From the IMG/VR virus record IMGVR_UViG_3300003324_000946, positions 1 through 31,220 of that record: a stretch of 31,220 bases of DNA; one strand, 5' to 3'. Positions 22,357 to 31,220 of this stretch are shown in pieces (the stretch's first letter is position 1; the number at the start of each line of letters is the position of its first letter). The notes beneath the pieces were generated by a model, which saw only the letters and a list, made by a program, of their open reading frames with translations, was not told the DNA's origin and searched no databases. The DNA is from a virus. A program made the position numbers and the translations under genes.

Positions 22357-22520
22357 TCAGTCAAACCGTTCCTGAAAACTTACGTAAACCTAGAAGGTAC
22401 AAAACCACCCAGATTTCCCGTTCCATTCCTGCTGCACACGAGACAGTTTCACCCAAGGTACGCCCTCAAGCCAGAGCCATCTCTTCTTCGCAGGCATTTA
22501 TCGTTTCCGTCGAACTGACG
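22357..22520 (-). ncRNA. Possible omega RNA/right end of the TnpB element
   Basis: TnpB proteins use a guide RNA made from the 3' end of their gene and the transposon right end. Here 109 bases lie between the tnpB stop and the next gene, with a segment AGCAGGAATGGGAACGGG on the minus strand resembling the GAAGCAGGAA stretch often seen after tnpB, and the palindrome TTACGTAA at about 22381-22388. The exact scaffold/guide boundary cannot be drawn by eye. Confidence 0.3.
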
Positions 22521-23665
22521 GCAACGTGTTCTAAATTACAACTTGCGTTAAAATCCCTGTCGTGGTGCGTCCCACAACCTTCACAGACCCATTCTCGGTC
22601 AGCCAATCTCAGGTTCTGATTGATTTCCCCACATACGCTACACGTCTTGCTGGAAGCAAAAAACCTGTCTGCCACGGCGATCCGGCAGTTGTACCAGACG
22701 CCCTTGTAGGTCATCTGACGCCGCCACTCGCCTAGACCAAGATCGGCAATGGCCCGTGCCAAACACCTGTTCTTGAGCATACCCGCCACATTTAAGTCCT
22801 CGATGCCGATAGCTGACTTGGTTTTCGTCAAGCAGGTCGTCATCTTGTGAATAACGTCTTGTCGGATATTGCTCACTTTCAGGTACAAACGAGCCACACG
22901 GTCTGCTGCCTTCCTTCTGTTCCTACTGCCTTTGACCTTACGGGCGACCGCTCGTTGTAGCCGCCGTAGTTTCCTAAGTCGTGAGGAGAGTGCCTTCGGG
23001 TTCTGGTACACCGTGCCGTCCGAGACGGTCGCCAGTGTCTTGATGCCCAAGTCCACGCCCACGACTTCCTTCTTGTCCTTGACGCCGGTGTAGGTCGGCA
23101 TGTCCATCTCCACCAGCACGCTCACGAACCACCGACCAGCCCTCTCGCTAACCGTGGCATTAAGTATCTTGGCGTCGGTCGGCAAGTAGTCCTTCTCCTT
23201 GAGTCTGATCGTACCGAGCCGTGGCAACTGGATGCTGTTGTTGAAAACAACAATTGTACCATACAGACGGAAACTGCCAATCCCACTTTTCTTGCTCTTG
23301 AACTTCGGGAAGCCCATGCGTCTCTTCGTTTTGCGGCTATTCCAGAAGTTGCTGAACGCATTGTCTAAGTTTCGCAGGGCTTCTTGTGAACTGCACTTAC
23401 TGACCTCATACATCCACGGCACTTCAGTCTTTTTCAAGACAGTCAAACGACGATGCAGTTCAATGGCATTGGGAATTTTGGTCTTTACCTCCATCGCCAT
23501 CTTCTTCTGGCTCAAGCCCCAATTATATGCCCAGCGTGCTGCTCCCGCATTTTTCAGCAAGAGAGTGCGTTGTTTGTTGTTGGGCCTGATCTCAGTTTTG
23601 TAGCCTCGTTGTATCGGCAATTGTTCTTTTGCCTCCAACTCCGACAACTTACAATCATTCTGCAT
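22466..23665 (-). CDS. tnpB: TnpB (IS200/IS605-type RNA-guided nuclease)
   Basis: 399 residues from the ATG at 23665 (a TTG at 23674, nearer the AGAGGAG site, would add three residues). N-terminal OrfB helix-turn-helix region (YKTEIRPNNKQRTLLLKNAG, ARWAYNWGL) is intact. The RuvC parts are complete: VGVDLGIKT (Asp at about 205), IGIEDLNV (Glu at about 289) and HDRDFNASCN (Asp at about 371), with the CSVC/CEGC zinc ribbon between. It should be an active omega-RNA-guided DNA nuclease. No tnpA is present in this window. The ATG lies five bases after the decarboxylase stop, in the same strand, so it is either a tight insertion or an operonic, perhaps domesticated, gene. Confidence 0.95.
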   Translation of the reverse strand: MQNDCKLSELEAKEQLPIQRGYKTEIRPNNKQRTLLLKNAGAARWAYNWGLSQKKMAMEVKTKIPNAIELHRRLTVLKKTEVPWMYEVSKCSSQEALRNLDNAFSNFWNSRKTKRRMGFPKFKSKKSGIGSFRLYGTIVVFNNSIQLPRLGTIRLKEKDYLPTDAKILNATVSERAGRWFVSVLVEMDMPTYTGVKDKKEVVGVDLGIKTLATVSDGTVYQNPKALSSRLRKLRRLQRAVARKVKGSRNRRKAADRVARLYLKVSNIRQDVIHKMTTCLTKTKSAIGIEDLNVAGMLKNRCLARAIADLGLGEWRRQMTYKGVWYNCRIAVADRFFASSKTCSVCGEINQNLRLADREWVCEGCGTHHDRDFNASCNLEHVAVSSTETINACEEEMALA

Positions 23666-23670
23666 CTTGG

Positions 23671-25311
23671 TCAAACTCTCCTCTTGAGATTATGCCCAAA
23701 ACGCTTCAGGGCAGGGCTCGTGTCGTTTTTCGACAGCTTCACGTTGACGATGGCGAGGCTGTCGGTGGCCATGACCTCCGCGATGACTTTCTCCATGTCA
23801 CCCTCCGTCTCGATGACGTAGCCCTTCCCGCCGCCGATGACGCCAGGAATGCTCTCGAAAGCCCACTCCTGTATATCGTTCCAGGGTCCTTCGAGGATTA
23901 ACCGCTCCGTCGTGTACCCCTGGTTGTTTAGGACAAAAATCTTGGGGGCCTTTGCCTTGCCGGACTTCCAGCGACGGACCAGTGTGGAGCACTCCATGCC
24001 GGTCATCTGAAACGCTCCGTCTCCCACAAACACCAGAGGAGTCAGATCCGGCCTGGCCGTGGTGACACCGAGGCTTCCTGGAACGGCAAACCCCATTGAC
24101 GTGTAAAACGCCGGCGACAGGAAATTCATCGAAGAATGCATCGTCAAGTCCGCCGCACCGAAGAGGCTTTCCCCCACGTCCGCAACGATGGCGGTCTTGT
24201 CGGTGATGATCGAGTCGATCTTCTCGAAGAAGCGAGCCACCGTGATGCGAGCATTCTGGTGGGCCTCAAACTGCGGCCGGTCGCGATCCTCGATGGCAAG
24301 AACCGTGCCGCGTGGCCGAATGTCCGTCACCAAGAGGCCGTTAACAAGCTCGCTGAAAACGACGTTCTGGTAGAAGCTGTTCCTGATTTGACAGGATTCG
24401 CTCGTGGCCAGTACAACCTTCCTCTTGCCGATCTTCAGGGGCATGAAACCGAGGTTCACGTCGGTCTGCATTACCCCCAGCATGATGAGGCAGTCGCTCT
24501 CGTCCACGCGAGCCGCAACCTCGCCCTTGGACATGGAGCCGCAGTAGACGCCGAGGCTGAGCGGGTGTCGCTCGTTGAAAACACTTTTGCCCAGCAGGCT
24601 TGTGGCCACCGGAATGCCAGTCTTTTCGGCCAACTTCTTGAGCTTGTCCTGGAGGCCGAACCGAGCGATTTCCTCTCCGGCCAAGATCACCGGTAAGCGG
24701 CTGGAGTTAATGTACTCGGCCACTTCGCCAAGAACTTCTTCCAGAACCTCCTCATCAGAGGTCGGCGGTTTCGGGGTGCCTTGATCGAGTGCGTAGCTGA
24801 TAGGCTTGTCGATCAAGTCGCGGGGGACCTCAATGTAGATAGGCCGCTTGTAGGTCTTCAGTGCTTCCAGTACGCGGTCGATCTCGTAAGCGGCCCGGTT
24901 GGTGTCGCGGAGGACCGTATTGGCACAGGTGACGTTGGAAAAAACCCTGTGCTGGCACTCGAAACTGCGGACCATGTGGTGCAGCAACAGGCCCTCTTGT
25001 CGCTCCTTGATGCCGGGACTGCCGGAGAGGAATACGACGGGGGACTTCTCGGCCTCAGCCTGGGCTACCGCATTAAAGATGGAAAATCCACCGACACAGT
25101 AGGTAAAGACGGCCAAGCCGATCCCGTTAACACGAGCATAGGCATCGGCGGCGTAGCCGGCACAGAGCTCGCTTGTCGTCCCGATCAACTCGATCTGAGA
25201 ATTCTGGAAGTGCTTATGCAGCGGCAGGGAGTAATCCCCGGGGACGGCAAAGCCATGCTTGATGCCAGCCCTGTAAAGACGATCAGTAATGTGCTGTCCT
25301 AGTGTTGGCAT
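23671..25311 (-). CDS. Thiamine-diphosphate 2-keto-acid decarboxylase (pyruvate/indolepyruvate decarboxylase family)
   Basis: 546 residues, full length for the family; ATG at 25311. It should convert a 2-keto acid to an aldehyde and CO2. All residues known to be catalytic in yeast and Zymomonas pyruvate decarboxylase are present: Asp26 in VPGDYSLPL, Glu48 in TTSELCAGYAADAYAR, the His111-His112 pair in LLHHMVRSF and Glu469 in NNQGYTTER. The ThDP/Mg motif runs from GDGAFQMTG (430) to NN (462-463). The Asn-Glu-Leu-Asn of the family is changed to SELC. The gene ends cleanly (LKRRV) next to tnpB. Substrate (pyruvate, phenylpyruvate, indolepyruvate or branched) cannot be told from sequence alone. 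Such an enzyme in a phage is very unusual. Confidence 0.93.
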   Translation of the reverse strand: MPTLGQHITDRLYRAGIKHGFAVPGDYSLPLHKHFQNSQIELIGTTSELCAGYAADAYARVNGIGLAVFTYCVGGFSIFNAVAQAEAEKSPVVFLSGSPGIKERQEGLLLHHMVRSFECQHRVFSNVTCANTVLRDTNRAAYEIDRVLEALKTYKRPIYIEVPRDLIDKPISYALDQGTPKPPTSDEEVLEEVLGEVAEYINSSRLPVILAGEEIARFGLQDKLKKLAEKTGIPVATSLLGKSVFNERHPLSLGVYCGSMSKGEVAARVDESDCLIMLGVMQTDVNLGFMPLKIGKRKVVLATSESCQIRNSFYQNVVFSELVNGLLVTDIRPRGTVLAIEDRDRPQFEAHQNARITVARFFEKIDSIITDKTAIVADVGESLFGAADLTMHSSMNFLSPAFYTSMGFAVPGSLGVTTARPDLTPLVFVGDGAFQMTGMECSTLVRRWKSGKAKAPKIFVLNNQGYTTERLILEGPWNDIQEWAFESIPGVIGGGKGYVIETEGDMEKVIAEVMATDSLAIVNVKLSKNDTSPALKRFGHNLKRRV

Positions 25312-25349: not shown

Positions 25350-26168
25350 TCATGCAACCACATCTTCTGCGGTTGGGCTGTCCATGACTCGTATCAAAAA
25401 GCCGTCCTCAAGCGTTGGAAACCTCTGAACCCACTCTACTCCCTCCCCAATCCCGCAGCCTGTCTGGCTCGGCGTATAGCTAATGAAGCTAATCGATGGA
25501 GTTGAGACGCCTACGCCCAAGAAGGGGCCGCTTTGCATAAGGGTGCCGGAATCCGACATCTTAAGGAGCTTGAATTCTAGGTAATAACATCCCGGCAAAC
25601 AAGTATCGCCAGCGGCCCACTCATAAATCAGACTGCTTCTCGTCAGGACGTTAGTCTTGGTCGTACCGTCAACTTGGGGGATATCTTCCTTGACCATCTC
25701 GGTAGTCGCCACCGCGTTGAGAACGCGGAATATTTTCAAGCCACTGCCCTTGGGGTAATCCGAGACGACACTTCCGTTGTAGCCGCGTTGGACCAGAATA
25801 AGTTTGTTTGTCTCATCAAAACCGATCACAAGCATCTGCTCAGGTGCCCGTGCCCGATCCATTACGATGATGTCACCAACTTGGGCCTGCTGAAAACCGT
25901 GATTATCGGCCAGCCCAAAATAAGTATCGTCAACTGTAATTGCTTTCTTTAGCCTTGCTTTCGCCCACATCGATACTTCACACACCAGGTCGGTCAGGTC
26001 GATGGGGCCATCACAATCTTCCACATCAAAGCGGAAAGACGGCTTGGTATCATGACGCCGGATCGTGAAATCAGGACAACGAGGGGGGCATTGATGGCAG
26101 TGACTGCCGTCGCCCCTCCAGAACGGATAATTCCGGTCGTTAAAGCTGTGACTTGGGACGCATGTCAT
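25350..26168 (-). CDS. Phage structural protein with a BppU-like N-terminal domain
   Basis: 272 residues from the ATG at 26168; the open frame to 26369 is antisense-like and overlaps the upstream gene. After a His/Cys cluster (GSHCHQCPPRCPD, residues about 24-36) comes TKPSFRFDVEDCDGPIDLTD then VCEVSMWAK, the pattern seen at the start of phage baseplate/upper-fibre proteins (D..P.x.x.x.D..G.xxDLT). A beta-rich middle (GDIIVMDRARAPEQMLVIGF, LILVQRGYNGSVV) and a fibre-like C-terminus follow. The Cys/His cluster may bind zinc. The ribosome site is poor. It is the only evident structural gene in this part. Confidence 0.65.
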   Translation of the reverse strand: MTCVPSHSFNDRNYPFWRGDGSHCHQCPPRCPDFTIRRHDTKPSFRFDVEDCDGPIDLTDLVCEVSMWAKARLKKAITVDDTYFGLADNHGFQQAQVGDIIVMDRARAPEQMLVIGFDETNKLILVQRGYNGSVVSDYPKGSGLKIFRVLNAVATTEMVKEDIPQVDGTTKTNVLTRSSLIYEWAAGDTCLPGCYYLEFKLLKMSDSGTLMQSGPFLGVGVSTPSISFISYTPSQTGCGIGEGVEWVQRFPTLEDGFLIRVMDSPTAEDVVA

Positions 26169-26196
26169 ACCCCTATGTATTCGTTTCCTTCCGAAA

Positions 26197-26445
26197 CTAC
26201 TCCCACTTGGAATGGGCGACCGGTGGATTTGGATCGAGTTCCAAAGTGGGCGTGTCGTCGCTGACGATACTGCGGGCGTAGAGGGCGTCGTGGCAGTAAT
26301 CCTTGCCGCGAACGTAGTGGAACAGACAGTATTGCGTGGACTTGCCGAACTTGCTGCGGTCAATGGCACAGTGGATGATCGCCTGAATCCACATATTCGG
26401 ATGATTCGTGTACCTTACCTTGTCTCCGACCTTGAACTTGGACAT
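26197..26445 (-). CDS. Small protein with an SH3-like start
   Basis: 82 residues. ATG at 26445 with GAGGG seven bases upstream. The start MSKFKVGDKVRYTNHPNMWI is typical of small SH3/KOW-like barrels (VGDKVRY). Several Cys/His (IHCAID, YCLFHYVRGKDYCHD) may coordinate metal. Overlaps the upstream small gene by 31 bases. No family recognised. Confidence 0.7.
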   Translation of the reverse strand: MSKFKVGDKVRYTNHPNMWIQAIIHCAIDRSKFGKSTQYCLFHYVRGKDYCHDALYARSIVSDDTPTLELDPNPPVAHSKWE

Positions 26446-28165: not shown

Positions 28166-28579
28166 TCAATGAAATAGATAACACATAAGGAGCAGCTGCA
28201 ATAGAGCGAGCACTCCCACAGCTAATTGAGCGGCCGAACGCCATTTTTTGTACATAAACATGAGTATTACCGCAACGGCTGCTGTGCCAAGCATTTTTCC
28301 CACGAACAACCCGTATTGGCCGTACTGAGTGATAATGGCACGTCCGAGCGGATTGTACTCCTCACTCGGCAGTGTGCCACAGGCAACAACTAGCCACCCA
28401 TCAATCAAGGAAGTGCTGACCACGAAGGCGAGGAGCCACCCAAACGGGATACGCCCCTCCAGCCAACGCTCTACTTTGCCTTCTTGGGCTTGCTGGCCTT
28501 TGGCTTGTGCGAGTCCTTCTTGCCGCAAATTTCCGTAGTATCCATGTTGACGGTCTTGTACTGCCCGATTGCTCCACAT
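28166..28579 (-). CDS. Three-helix membrane protein, DUF5658-like
   Basis: 137 residues. The ATG at 28579 has a strong AAGGAG, although it lies inside the preceding gene (109-base overlap in another frame). The first 44 residues are polar; membrane helices follow at about 45-67, 89-110 and 115-135. Between them, TLPSEEYNPLGRAI and GLFVGKM match the E-x-NP and FxxxK pattern of DUF5658-type small membrane proteins. Their function is not known to me. The unusually long overlap means the true start could be further downstream. Confidence 0.7.
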   Translation of the reverse strand: MWSNRAVQDRQHGYYGNLRQEGLAQAKGQQAQEGKVERWLEGRIPFGWLLAFVVSTSLIDGWLVVACGTLPSEEYNPLGRAIITQYGQYGLFVGKMLGTAAVAVILMFMYKKWRSAAQLAVGVLALLQLLLMCYLFH

Positions 28580-28764
28580 GCCTTCTCCTTGCCGTATGGG
28601 GGCCTGGTAATGAAGTCTTCGGGGGACGGCGGATACTGCGTGCCGGCACCAAGGGCGTGCCTTGTGGCCGGGCTAGACTCTTGTGCCAGCAGCCAATTTT
28701 TGAAACTAATGTGCTTTGACTTGCTTCTATCGAAACTCGTCGGCACTTGCGTTGCTATTTCCAT
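28471..28764 (-). CDS. Small phage protein with a CTS-like segment, unknown function
   Basis: 97 residues from the ATG at 28764 (a TTG at 28791 is also in frame); ribosome site weak. Residues about 19-30 read ISFKNWLLAQES, followed by SPATRHALGAGTQYPPSPED, a segment order I associate with small phage proteins. The tail is basic (KDSHKPKASKPKKAK). The 3' 109 bases overlap the DUF5658-like gene. It is first in its transcript, diverging from the plus-strand operon; CTTAAATA (28811-28818) is a promoter candidate. Function unknown. Confidence 0.65.
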   Translation of the reverse strand: MEIATQVPTSFDRSKSKHISFKNWLLAQESSPATRHALGAGTQYPPSPEDFITRPPYGKEKACGAIGQYKTVNMDTTEICGKKDSHKPKASKPKKAK

Positions 28765-28810
28765 GCCGGTATCTAGCAGACCACCGTGCAACTCTAATAC
28801 TAGAAGTCGT

Positions 28811-28818
28811 TATTTAAG
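28811..28818 (-). promoter_or_regulatory. Promoter-like CTTAAATA element in the divergent gap
   Basis: On the minus strand CTTAAATA lies 46 bases before the ATG at 28764, at the head of a minus-strand transcript. It is the third CNTAAATA site at such a place in this window, two mismatches from the T4 late box TATAAATA. Confidence 0.3.
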
Positions 28819-28853
28819 GCAATATTCTTTAGCCCAAGACTATTTTCAGGGAA

Positions 28854-28874
28854 CGGGCACTCTATATACGCCCG
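28854..28874 (+). promoter_or_regulatory. -10-like TATATA inside a CGGGC inverted repeat, before the plus-strand operon
   Basis: TATATA (28863-28868) sits centrally between CGGGC (28854-28858) and GCCCG (28870-28874). A transcript starting near 28875 would carry the GGAGG at 28882-28886. The flanking repeat could be a repressor operator. No clear -35 box. Confidence 0.4.
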
Positions 28875-28899
28875 GTCTATTGGAGGATCAACACACCAC

Positions 28900-29424
28900 A
28901 TGCTTGAAGAATTGAAGGAACTCGTTCCGGGCGAGATGCTTACCATTGATGATCCCGACGTGCGTGAATTCACCGAGAACGAGGACTTCAATGTGCTCGG
29001 GGTGAAGATTTACAGCCAGGACGAGGGGGAAATACTCTTCCTTGACCTGGACGGGTACTACCTCGTCTGTCACACGTTCGACGGTGATCCGAGATACTAC
29101 ATTTACGAACTAAATGCAGACGGGGACGAGGACGACCTGAGTGACGATGGCTTCCGGCTCGTACTGAAAGACGACCCATTGCCACACAAGATGTATGCTG
29201 GACGCAACGACAGAGAAGTGCTCTACAAAGCCACCATCGGGCCTGTCTACGAGCTCAACGTAGACAGGGAAGACGGCCCAGAAGAAAGCGAGGGTGGGGA
29301 AATAGCCGTATGCGAGTACCGCAGTAAGTCCAAGCACCACAGCCACGCACTGATCGAATTGCTTGATACCACTTTTAGGGTCTATCAAGGCTTTCAAATC
29401 AGTAAAAACAGCATTGTCCTATGA
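28900..29424 (+). CDS. Acidic protein of unknown function
   Basis: 174 residues from the ATG at 28900; GGAGG lies 13 bases upstream, a long spacer. Very acidic (EGEILFLDLDGYYLVCH, NADGDEDDLSDDGFRLV, EDGPEESEGGEIAV), with beta strands between acidic loops, so possibly a DNA-mimic-like or calcium-binding protein, but this is only composition. First gene of a two-gene plus-strand operon; its stop overlaps the next start (ATGA). No family recognised. Confidence 0.75.
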   Translation: MLEELKELVPGEMLTIDDPDVREFTENEDFNVLGVKIYSQDEGEILFLDLDGYYLVCHTFDGDPRYYIYELNADGDEDDLSDDGFRLVLKDDPLPHKMYAGRNDREVLYKATIGPVYELNVDREDGPEESEGGEIAVCEYRSKSKHHSHALIELLDTTFRVYQGFQISKNSIVL

Positions 29425-29777
29425 AAGACTTGGAGCTACTGTCTGCTCGTTTTCTTACCCTGGAGATACCGCCGCACAAGGAATACCTGCACAAGTATTT
29501 CAAGGGCAAAATCCAGGAGCGAGCGGTAGTTTACTTCCTTGTCTTTCCCTACGACGGCAATCTCAAGAGGTATGCACAAAACCTCATCGACCACACCGGC
29601 ATACCACTTTGCACCGTATGGGTTTCCGACCTCCTGAAGAAATTCAGAACCATTGAAGAGCGATTGGCCAAAGCAGAAGCGGACAAAGACCACGTAACGG
29701 TGGCCCTCATCCGCTCTGGAAAATGGGTGCGTCGGCCGGGTAAGTTTGCTACTCGACCTTCACCTGATTCACGATGA
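29421..29777 (+). CDS. Small protein of unknown function, second gene of the plus-strand operon
   Basis: 118 residues. ATG at 29421 overlaps the previous stop by four bases. Alpha/beta: helix LSARFLTLEIPPHKEYLHKY, strand AVVYFLVFPYDG, helix NLKRYAQNLIDHTG, strand LCTVWVSDLL, then a charged helix (EERLAKAEADKDH) and a basic tail. The strand-helix order hints at a small nucleotide-binding-like fold but no motif confirms it. Its last 29 bases overlap the end of the convergent HNH gene. No family recognised. Confidence 0.75.
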   Translation: MKDLELLSARFLTLEIPPHKEYLHKYFKGKIQERAVVYFLVFPYDGNLKRYAQNLIDHTGIPLCTVWVSDLLKKFRTIEERLAKAEADKDHVTVALIRSGKWVRRPGKFATRPSPDSR

Positions 29778-31220
29778 TGGGGATGTCGCACTCGTCGTCG
29801 CTGAACAATTCCGCCGCCATGATCCTCGGATCACTTTCAGGCCCGTAATGACTGAGACAAGTGATGTTAACGTCACCGGTCAACTCCCGGAAGCACTCTT
29901 CCTCCAGCGACAGCACCTTCATGCCAGCCTCTTCCGGCGTCCTGTCTGCCCCTTTCTTGTGAGCACACGGCAGACAGGCCACGACGCAGTTCTCGAAGCT
30001 GCTCTCGCCGCCCCTGCTCCTGGGGAGCAAGTGAACCACCACGCCCTCTGGCCCGCCTTGATAATACTTGCCGTCCTTGACCTGGACACCGCAGAAGCGG
30101 CAGTGGTTGTTATCGCGATTGGCGATGGCCCGCCTTGAGAAAGCTGGTGGCTTGATGTACTTCTGCTTGGTCGGCCCGGCAAGGAGCTTGCCCTTGCGGG
30201 TCCTGACGATCTTCCTGAAGTCGGCATGGCTCGGGCTTATCTTCCACCGCTCTGCATGCCCATCGACCATCTCCTCCATCTCCACAACATAGTGCTTGTC
30301 GAGAACGGTGAGAATCGTCATCTTCAGCCGGAGGCCCTGAATGCATACTGAATCAACCTCCAGTACGTCGCCCACCTGAAAGAAGGGCTTGTCGTCTGGC
30401 GGCTGCTCAATGATGACCTGAGTAAACTCCATTTTCCCTTTTTCCTCCTCCAGTTTCTCGTCGAAGGTGTGACACTTCTGCTCGCCGCCAAAGGGGCGGA
30501 AATACGGCTTGTATTGAGGTAGTTGCTCGATCTTCTCTTGGATCAGAGAAGCGTTGAGCTCACTTGGGCCTGGCTGCGACTCTAACGCCTCCTCGGCAGC
30601 ATCATACTCCTTTGGGTCGCCGCCGCCGATGTACTTCCAGTTGTCCTTCTGGGCCTCGGCCATCTTGTTCTGAACCTGGCGGGCTGCCAGGCCCTTGCTG
30701 TGCAAAGGCGTGCAGTAAGGCACGGAGTCTTCCTTGATCACAGCAAGGGCCTCCTCTAAGTTGAGCGGCACAACCTCCATCACCGGGGGCGGCTCCTGAT
30801 CGCTCACGACCTTTCCCTGCCACTCCTTGACGAAGAGTTGGTCGAAGTCGGCACAGATCGCGGCATGAAGCATGTCTGGAGCGTCGTCGTACTCCAATTT
30901 GTACCTGCCATCCTGTACTTCCAGGACGCGACCAAAACGGAACTTGTGGCCGTCTGTGGACTTCTCAGTGACAGTGAAGCGTGTGCCTGCACGCAAGAGC
31001 GGTTGACCGTCGAGAAATGCCGACGCACGCTCCTTGCCGCCAACACGGGCAACAAAATCATCGAAGTCTGAAAGGCGGTAGACGATGACGGGATTGCTGA
31101 TGATAGGCCCCTTGTCAATGATCCGTGATACCTGGTCGCCTTTGTTGACTGTCAACTCCTCGTACTCCGTGCCCCACCGCCAGTGCGGGTAGCGGACCGG
31201 GAAGCCGCCGTAGGCCGCGA
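29749..31220 (-). CDS. HNH-domain protein whose frame runs off the right edge with a SpoVR-like segment
   Basis: At least 489 codons are open; a TTG at 31155 is the only start-like codon near the beginning of the unique part, but it has no usable ribosome site, so the gene probably starts beyond the window. The edge segment reads YPHWRWGTEYE in frame, preceded by AAYGGFPVR, which resembles the SpoVR signature. Then come unknown regions (FDDFVARVGGKERASAF, VGDVLEVDSVCIQG). At about residues 352-400 from the TTG lies an HNH/zinc domain: CRFCGVQ, VVVHLLPRSRGG, FENCVVACLPCAHKKG, then TPEEAGM. The usual Asp before the first catalytic His is Val. The domain is common in homing and restriction-type nucleases. 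Confidence 0.8.
   Translation of the reverse strand, partial: AAYGGFPVRYPHWRWGTEYEELTVNKGDQVSRIIDKGPIISNPVIVYRLSDFDDFVARVGGKERASAFLDGQPLLRAGTRFTVTEKSTDGHKFRFGRVLEVQDGRYKLEYDDAPDMLHAAICADFDQLFVKEWQGKVVSDQEPPPVMEVVPLNLEEALAVIKEDSVPYCTPLHSKGLAARQVQNKMAEAQKDNWKYIGGGDPKEYDAAEEALESQPGPSELNASLIQEKIEQLPQYKPYFRPFGGEQKCHTFDEKLEEEKGKMEFTQVIIEQPPDDKPFFQVGDVLEVDSVCIQGLRLKMTILTVLDKHYVVEMEEMVDGHAERWKISPSHADFRKIVRTRKGKLLAGPTKQKYIKPPAFSRRAIANRDNNHCRFCGVQVKDGKYYQGGPEGVVVHLLPRSRGGESSFENCVVACLPCAHKKGADRTPEEAGMKVLSLEEECFRELTGDVNITCLSHYGPESDPRIMAAELFSDDECDIPIIVNQVKVE

Follow-up and report, generated by a model that had tools for sequence, protein, structure and literature searches.

An apparent in-frame join of a SpoVR motif to an HNH-family protein carrying a PrkA-like motif at the end of a viral contig

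The window analysed is a complete IMG/VR record of 31,220 bases. Between 972 and 29777 its gene order follows that of the 299.7-330.7 kb region of LR756511.1, a 595-kb phage. At its right end lies the open reading frame P0001 (Table 1), which stops at 29749 and is left 5′-open by the contig end at 31220. After a SpoVR piece the frame runs unbroken into 467 further residues that include an HNH core. The only early in-frame start is a TTG at 31155; an independent start there is unconvincing because the GAGGAG in front of it abuts it with zero spacer. Structure prediction of P0001 without an alignment gave a pLDDT of 34, and the β strands of the two possible repeat units were read off this low-confidence model.

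Table 1. Positions of P0001, its parts and the synteny marker gene in the window
Feature	Position	Strand	Basis or remark
P0001, whole ORF	29749..31218	-	489 codons/aa; 5′ end cut by contig end
SpoVR motif, P0001 residues 1-22 (AAYGGFPVRYPHWRWGTEYEEL)	31153..31218	-	profile matches; sharp end after YEEL
P0001 middle part, residues 23-358	30145..31152	-	no relatives found except for HNH N-terminal edge
Possible repeat unit A, P0001 residues 74-135, beta-rich	30814..30999	-	suggested by alignment with unit B by eye
M2, weakly PrkA-like, P0001 residues 174-197 (SKGLAARQVQNKMAEAQKDNWKYI)	30628..30699	-	near-noise profile scores; tblastn
Possible repeat unit B, P0001 residues 283-345, beta-rich	30184..30372	-	suggested by eye
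HNH core, P0001 residues about 357-437	29908..30150	-	89 bits, profile of 141 relatives
PrkA motif M1, P0001 residues 445-467 (ELTGDVNITCLSHYGPESDPRIM)	29818..29886	-	PrkA profile, shuffles, DNA patterns
Synteny marker gene (function not assigned)	25353..26369	-	homologues in related records

At 28900-29777 lie two plus-strand genes, with the genes around them on the minus strand. The second of the pair has its match in LR756511.1 in the opposite relative orientation, thus a local inversion beside P0001 is possible. A full-length thiamine-diphosphate-enzyme-like gene (23671-25311; 44% to LR756511.1) also makes weaker matches to genes annotated elsewhere as indolepyruvate decarboxylase and acetolactate synthase. 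The gene at 22466-23674, which we take to resemble an IS605-type TnpB, is 52% identical to an ORF near the prkA-yeaH-spoVR operon in one related region (L162:16837-18102). None of the other window ORFs stood out clearly as a mosaic of genes from LR756511.1, and scanning with PhoH revealed no close relative of the window.

The sequence-only reading had recognised a SpoVR signature in the terminal bases of the contig, and this was borne out. The last 66 coding bases encode 22 residues which as a motif alone score 50.2 bits, the best shuffle reaching 4.0 (774 of 2,000 shuffles gave any hit). The conserved motif YGGFP.RYPHW.WG.EYE is present and is broken only at position 17, where P0001 has T in place of M/E. 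Against a profile of 64 giant-phage SpoVRs P0001 scores 41 bits (E 1.5e-12, 580 window ORFs). The Pfam SpoVR family (PF04293) matches at E 1.9e-5 with 24-25.8 bits over profile positions 43-91 of 407, which stays below the curated cut-off of 27 bits. P0001 is the single PF04293 match in the 31,220-base record, and the same reading was right, for the record as a whole, that the remainder of SpoVR is missing downstream. The next SpoVR stretch (profile 85-125) scores -0.7 bits in P0001, thus the likeness stops sharply after YEEL; a possible echo of the SpoVR N-terminus (E 5, residues 56-75) was disregarded. The SpoVR of giant phages is carried by LR756511.1 (343532-345142) and about 100 IMG/VR contigs. 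It shares the 22-residue motif with P0001 at 77-95% identity, but P0001 holds only these 22 of about 540 residues and the SpoVR residues that should follow are missing. With the signal confined to 22 residues a true SpoVR fusion, one of three options in the sequence-only reading, is unlikely. Motif-bearing ORFs in the spoVR locus sets are SpoVR in 74 of 74 cases. We note that in two entries of one contig (L074 and L089, contig 3300045125_000119) spoVR is seemingly frameshifted, with a 44-aa motif-bearing ORF.

At the DNA level, the 66 bp of the SpoVR piece are 92.4% identical to the spoVR of one locus (L106) and 87.9% to the second best. The median over 69 variants is 70%, and set against it the best match suggests that the piece is young. 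Its GC3 is 1.0, compared with 0.91-0.95 in the spoVR motifs of phages of similar GC; a high GC3 is normal for this motif, and composition was not accepted as evidence of a foreign source.

A second option in the sequence-only reading was an intron-like insertion, that is an intron or intein in spoVR with the HNH ORF in frame with the first exon. Exon-like sequence is indeed joined in frame to an HNH ORF, and inteins do occur in the spoVR and prkA genes of the clade. In-frame inserts are found in spoVR at 20 of 79 loci, and the junctions read in four clade proteins show classical intein ends after VIN, EGWA and, in prkA, SDAR. None of these four proteins has an intein after YEEL, and P0001 itself does not resemble the clade inteins. 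The junction in P0001 reads YEEL-TVNK, with neither a junction Cys nor a terminal HN before a SpoVR residue; P0001 does not show the N-terminal Cys/Ser, C-terminal His-Asn and flanking exteins that mark an intein. No second SpoVR exon was found in the whole record and an Rfam search of 28500-31220 gave no match at E <= 1, thus P0001 shows neither the intron RNA nor the second exon of a group I or II intron. The HNH metal ligands are also lost (see below). On these grounds the spliced-element explanation was rejected; we regard it as highly improbable. Among the clade genes themselves, two inteins per spoVR (about 1374 codons) are seen at L168:10803-14921, L171:3182-7303 and L200:10800-14921, and single-intein forms also occur. 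The prkA at L184:6160-9600 has an intein directly after its ELTGDIN...SDAR motif. A literature search on inteins in SpoVR found no paper.

That the SpoVR frame runs straight into an HNH protein was confirmed, the 489 codons being unbroken and the core matching its relatives with the score given in Table 1. PHROG 16726 matches this region at E 3.6e-14, and Pfam HNH and HNH_5 fall slightly under their cut-offs; overall the similarity to HNH proteins is clear. Position 395 is D in 139 and E in 2 of the 141 relatives and V in P0001 (30034-30036); position 419 is N in 141 of 141 and A in P0001 (29962-29964). P0001 thus lacks both the Asp of the DH pair and the Asn of the C..CN element. As in HNH enzymes generally, these two would be metal-binding positions. 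The four cysteines, H396, N410 and K422 are retained and so the fold is likely intact. Judged from the two substitutions the nuclease is probably dead, and inactivity is predicted. The closest known proteins, from phages and Planctomycetota, are about 220 aa long and have an 80-residue core that is up to 56% identical to that of P0001, with the four Cys, the His and the Lys in common. P0001 differs from them in its length (489+), in the replacement of both the N- and C-terminal parts, in a 7-residue insert in the core, and in the D->V and N->A changes at the predicted metal-binding positions.

Alignment-guided HNH scans, covering the best 80 of 415 viral and the best 80 of 275 cellular contig relatives, yielded HNH relatives only, with no significant match N-terminal of P0001 residue 294. 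Planctomycete titles are attached to 77 of the best 80 HNH loci in genome_contigs, the other three being titled ‘bacterium’. As the core is closest to planctomycete proteins, we infer that the phages are planctomycete-associated. No close relative of P0001 was found in viral_contigs. In annotated phages the matches were confined to the HNH core, one 24% match beginning at residue 230, and, for the N-terminus, to LR756511.1; residues 47-357 had no match in phages at E<=1. Residues 1-60 had no match in plasmids. The middle part (residues 23-358) gave no match at E<=10 in 50 related records, although the initial filter of that search had failed to pick up the weak PrkA piece too.

The sequence-only reading had mentioned neither the lost catalytic HNH residues nor two further results, a PrkA motif at the C-terminus and a conflict of synteny. 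The motif, M1, was first found via 4 of 50 records (E <= 0.001), each time in an ORF of ~700 aa identified as PrkA. The C-terminus of P0001 alone scores 18.2 bits against PrkA, a value reached by none of 3,000 shuffles, and M1 reaches 12.9 bits when the whole PrkA profile is used. On this profile P0001 ranks highest of the non-PrkA ORFs in a set of 9,550 (80 aa or longer, from all collected loci); the runners-up have 12.0 bits (an 80-aa ORF, PrkA C-terminus) and then 5.5. The C-terminal profile of P0001's own HNH family gave no hit to the P0001 C-terminus, and an ordinary HNH-family C-terminus was rejected as the source of M1. A strict DNA pattern for M1, designed after the match had been seen and thus indicating specificity rather than an independent P-value, found 44 stretches in IMG/VR, all 44 inside PrkA ORFs. 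M1 retains 9 of 11 invariant PrkA motif positions. Its DNA identity to any phage prkA compared is at most 65%, thus M1 would be either old or convergent, and convergence on a motif retains some probability.

On the PrkA profile (697 positions) P0001 matches only at positions 271-293 and, weakly, 462-485. The second stretch, M2, has a local profile score of 5.3 bits where the best shuffle has 5.0 (645 of 2,000 shuffles with a hit); it scores -2.2 bits on the full profile, which is within noise, and E 0.02-0.03 by tblastn. PrkA belongs to the AAA+ serine kinase family and has a solved structure (9xip). It has the motif ELTGD.N...L.H[YF]G..SDPR in common with P0001, with identity reaching 71% across 21 residues, but of its about 700 residues P0001 holds only 23 and a doubtful second stretch. 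The AAA+ domain with Walker motifs over the full length of PrkA, which PMC13001217 describes as an AAA+ protein, is absent from P0001. The endpoint of M1 coincides with the prkA intein site (SDPR in P0001, SDAR in the clade). M1 does not look like an intein remnant because it lies downstream of the HNH core, not upstream. Pieces of YeaH were also sought in P0001 and none rose above noise.

SpoVR and PrkA are products of one operon. All of prkA, yeaH (DUF444) and spoVR are present in 40 of 40 fetched regions (L161-L200), which had been picked for holding SpoVR; in one of them (L176) prkA is split over two frames. Clustering of YcgB (SpoVR), YeaH and YeaG (PrkA) across bacteria is described in PMC2375023. 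A SpoVR protein and a PrkA kinase are listed for the Ralstonia jumbo phage RsoM2USA in PMC8504454, the only paper returned by a literature search on SpoVR in huge phages. Of the 32 records searched, 20 have a homologue of the marker gene. Each of these also has spoVR, which lies 5′ of the marker, on the same strand and 15-42 kb away. Among the genes of this interval in LR756511.1 is one that looks, by eye, like a DNA polymerase III gene. In the window only 4.8 kb separate the SpoVR piece from the marker, the wrong distance for a giant-phage spoVR. It therefore appears that the piece is not a resident spoVR at its usual place, and that a large deletion, a copy or a misjoin placed it here.

The motifs with their sharp edges, the residue losses and the synteny conflict are observed; the recency of the join, the inactivity of the HNH domain and the way of joining are inferred. 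P0001 most likely arose by recombination or a faulty join and is unlikely to be a functional SpoVR fusion or a spliced element (intron or intein); of the three options first put forward, recombination debris fits best. The body of P0001 belongs to the HNH family, in a giant phage probably associated with planctomycetes, and has probably lost its nuclease activity. The HNH gene may have acquired the C-terminal PrkA-like motif at an older date. A segment of spoVR would then have been joined recently and in frame on the 5′ side, with a clean break after the codons for YEEL. This join could be a rearrangement in the phage population, such as a copy or deletion junction near prkA-yeaH-spoVR, or an assembly-end misjoin. 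If the join is real, P0001 would make a protein that does not cut and has a foreign tag at its N-terminus; it would be recombination debris and no spliced element. A composite gene to which spoVR sequence was recently joined, whether by a real rearrangement or in a way indistinguishable from one, has in our view about an even chance. The following points tell against this reading. M1 and the SpoVR piece share one operon, which a random misjoin does not predict; the stop-free frame of 489 codons argues against decay; and M1 is short while M2 is at noise on the full profile.

A plain misjoin at the contig end is possible, though on balance unlikely. In that case a chimeric read, or a branch of the assembly graph leading into the resident spoVR of this phage or a different one, would have supplied the last ~68 bases, and the true 5′ end of P0001 would differ. 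The foreign piece coincides exactly with the final ~66-68 bases of the contig, it resembles an undegraded ortholog, and its position conflicts with synteny in 20 of 20 records; a contig end so near a true junction would otherwise be a rare accident. Both the place of the piece at the very end and its clash with synteny thus point to a misjoin there or to a contig end caused by a repeat. A misjoin would, however, need the right frame and strand, with odds of about 1 in 6, and would have had to land by accident on a partner of PrkA, whose motif shares the ORF. Since a random misjoin would not pick a partner of PrkA, the presence of M1 in the same frame favours real biology. The composition of the piece also gives no sign of a foreign source.

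In place of debris, P0001 might be a maintained gene in which a dead HNH scaffold bears short, conserved SpoVR and PrkA motifs and serves the phage's PrkA-YeaH-SpoVR system as a decoy, adaptor or regulator. Two motifs of the same operon with sharp edges in one ORF would fit this, as would the 489 open codons, the nine invariant PrkA positions kept despite low DNA identity, and the loss of catalytic positions while fold positions are retained. Motif patterns in IMG/VR and the 50 related records gave no second example, and motifs removed from their folds seldom stay functional; we consider such a gene improbable. Still less probable, by a little, is its more specific form, a nuclease-dead HNH scaffold onto which motifs of two PrkA-YeaH-SpoVR partners were grafted at different times. 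If true, this scaffold would be a decoy or adaptor controlling PrkA-YeaH-SpoVR in its own or in competing phages.

Should the composite prove real, an unrelated phage gene would have captured parts of a single conserved operon, and P0001 would offer a rare handle on the roles of PrkA, YeaH and SpoVR in giant phages. If it is a misjoin, P0001 would be a useful warning about contig ends. Under either reading the clade-wide operon and the inteins in spoVR and prkA are informative.
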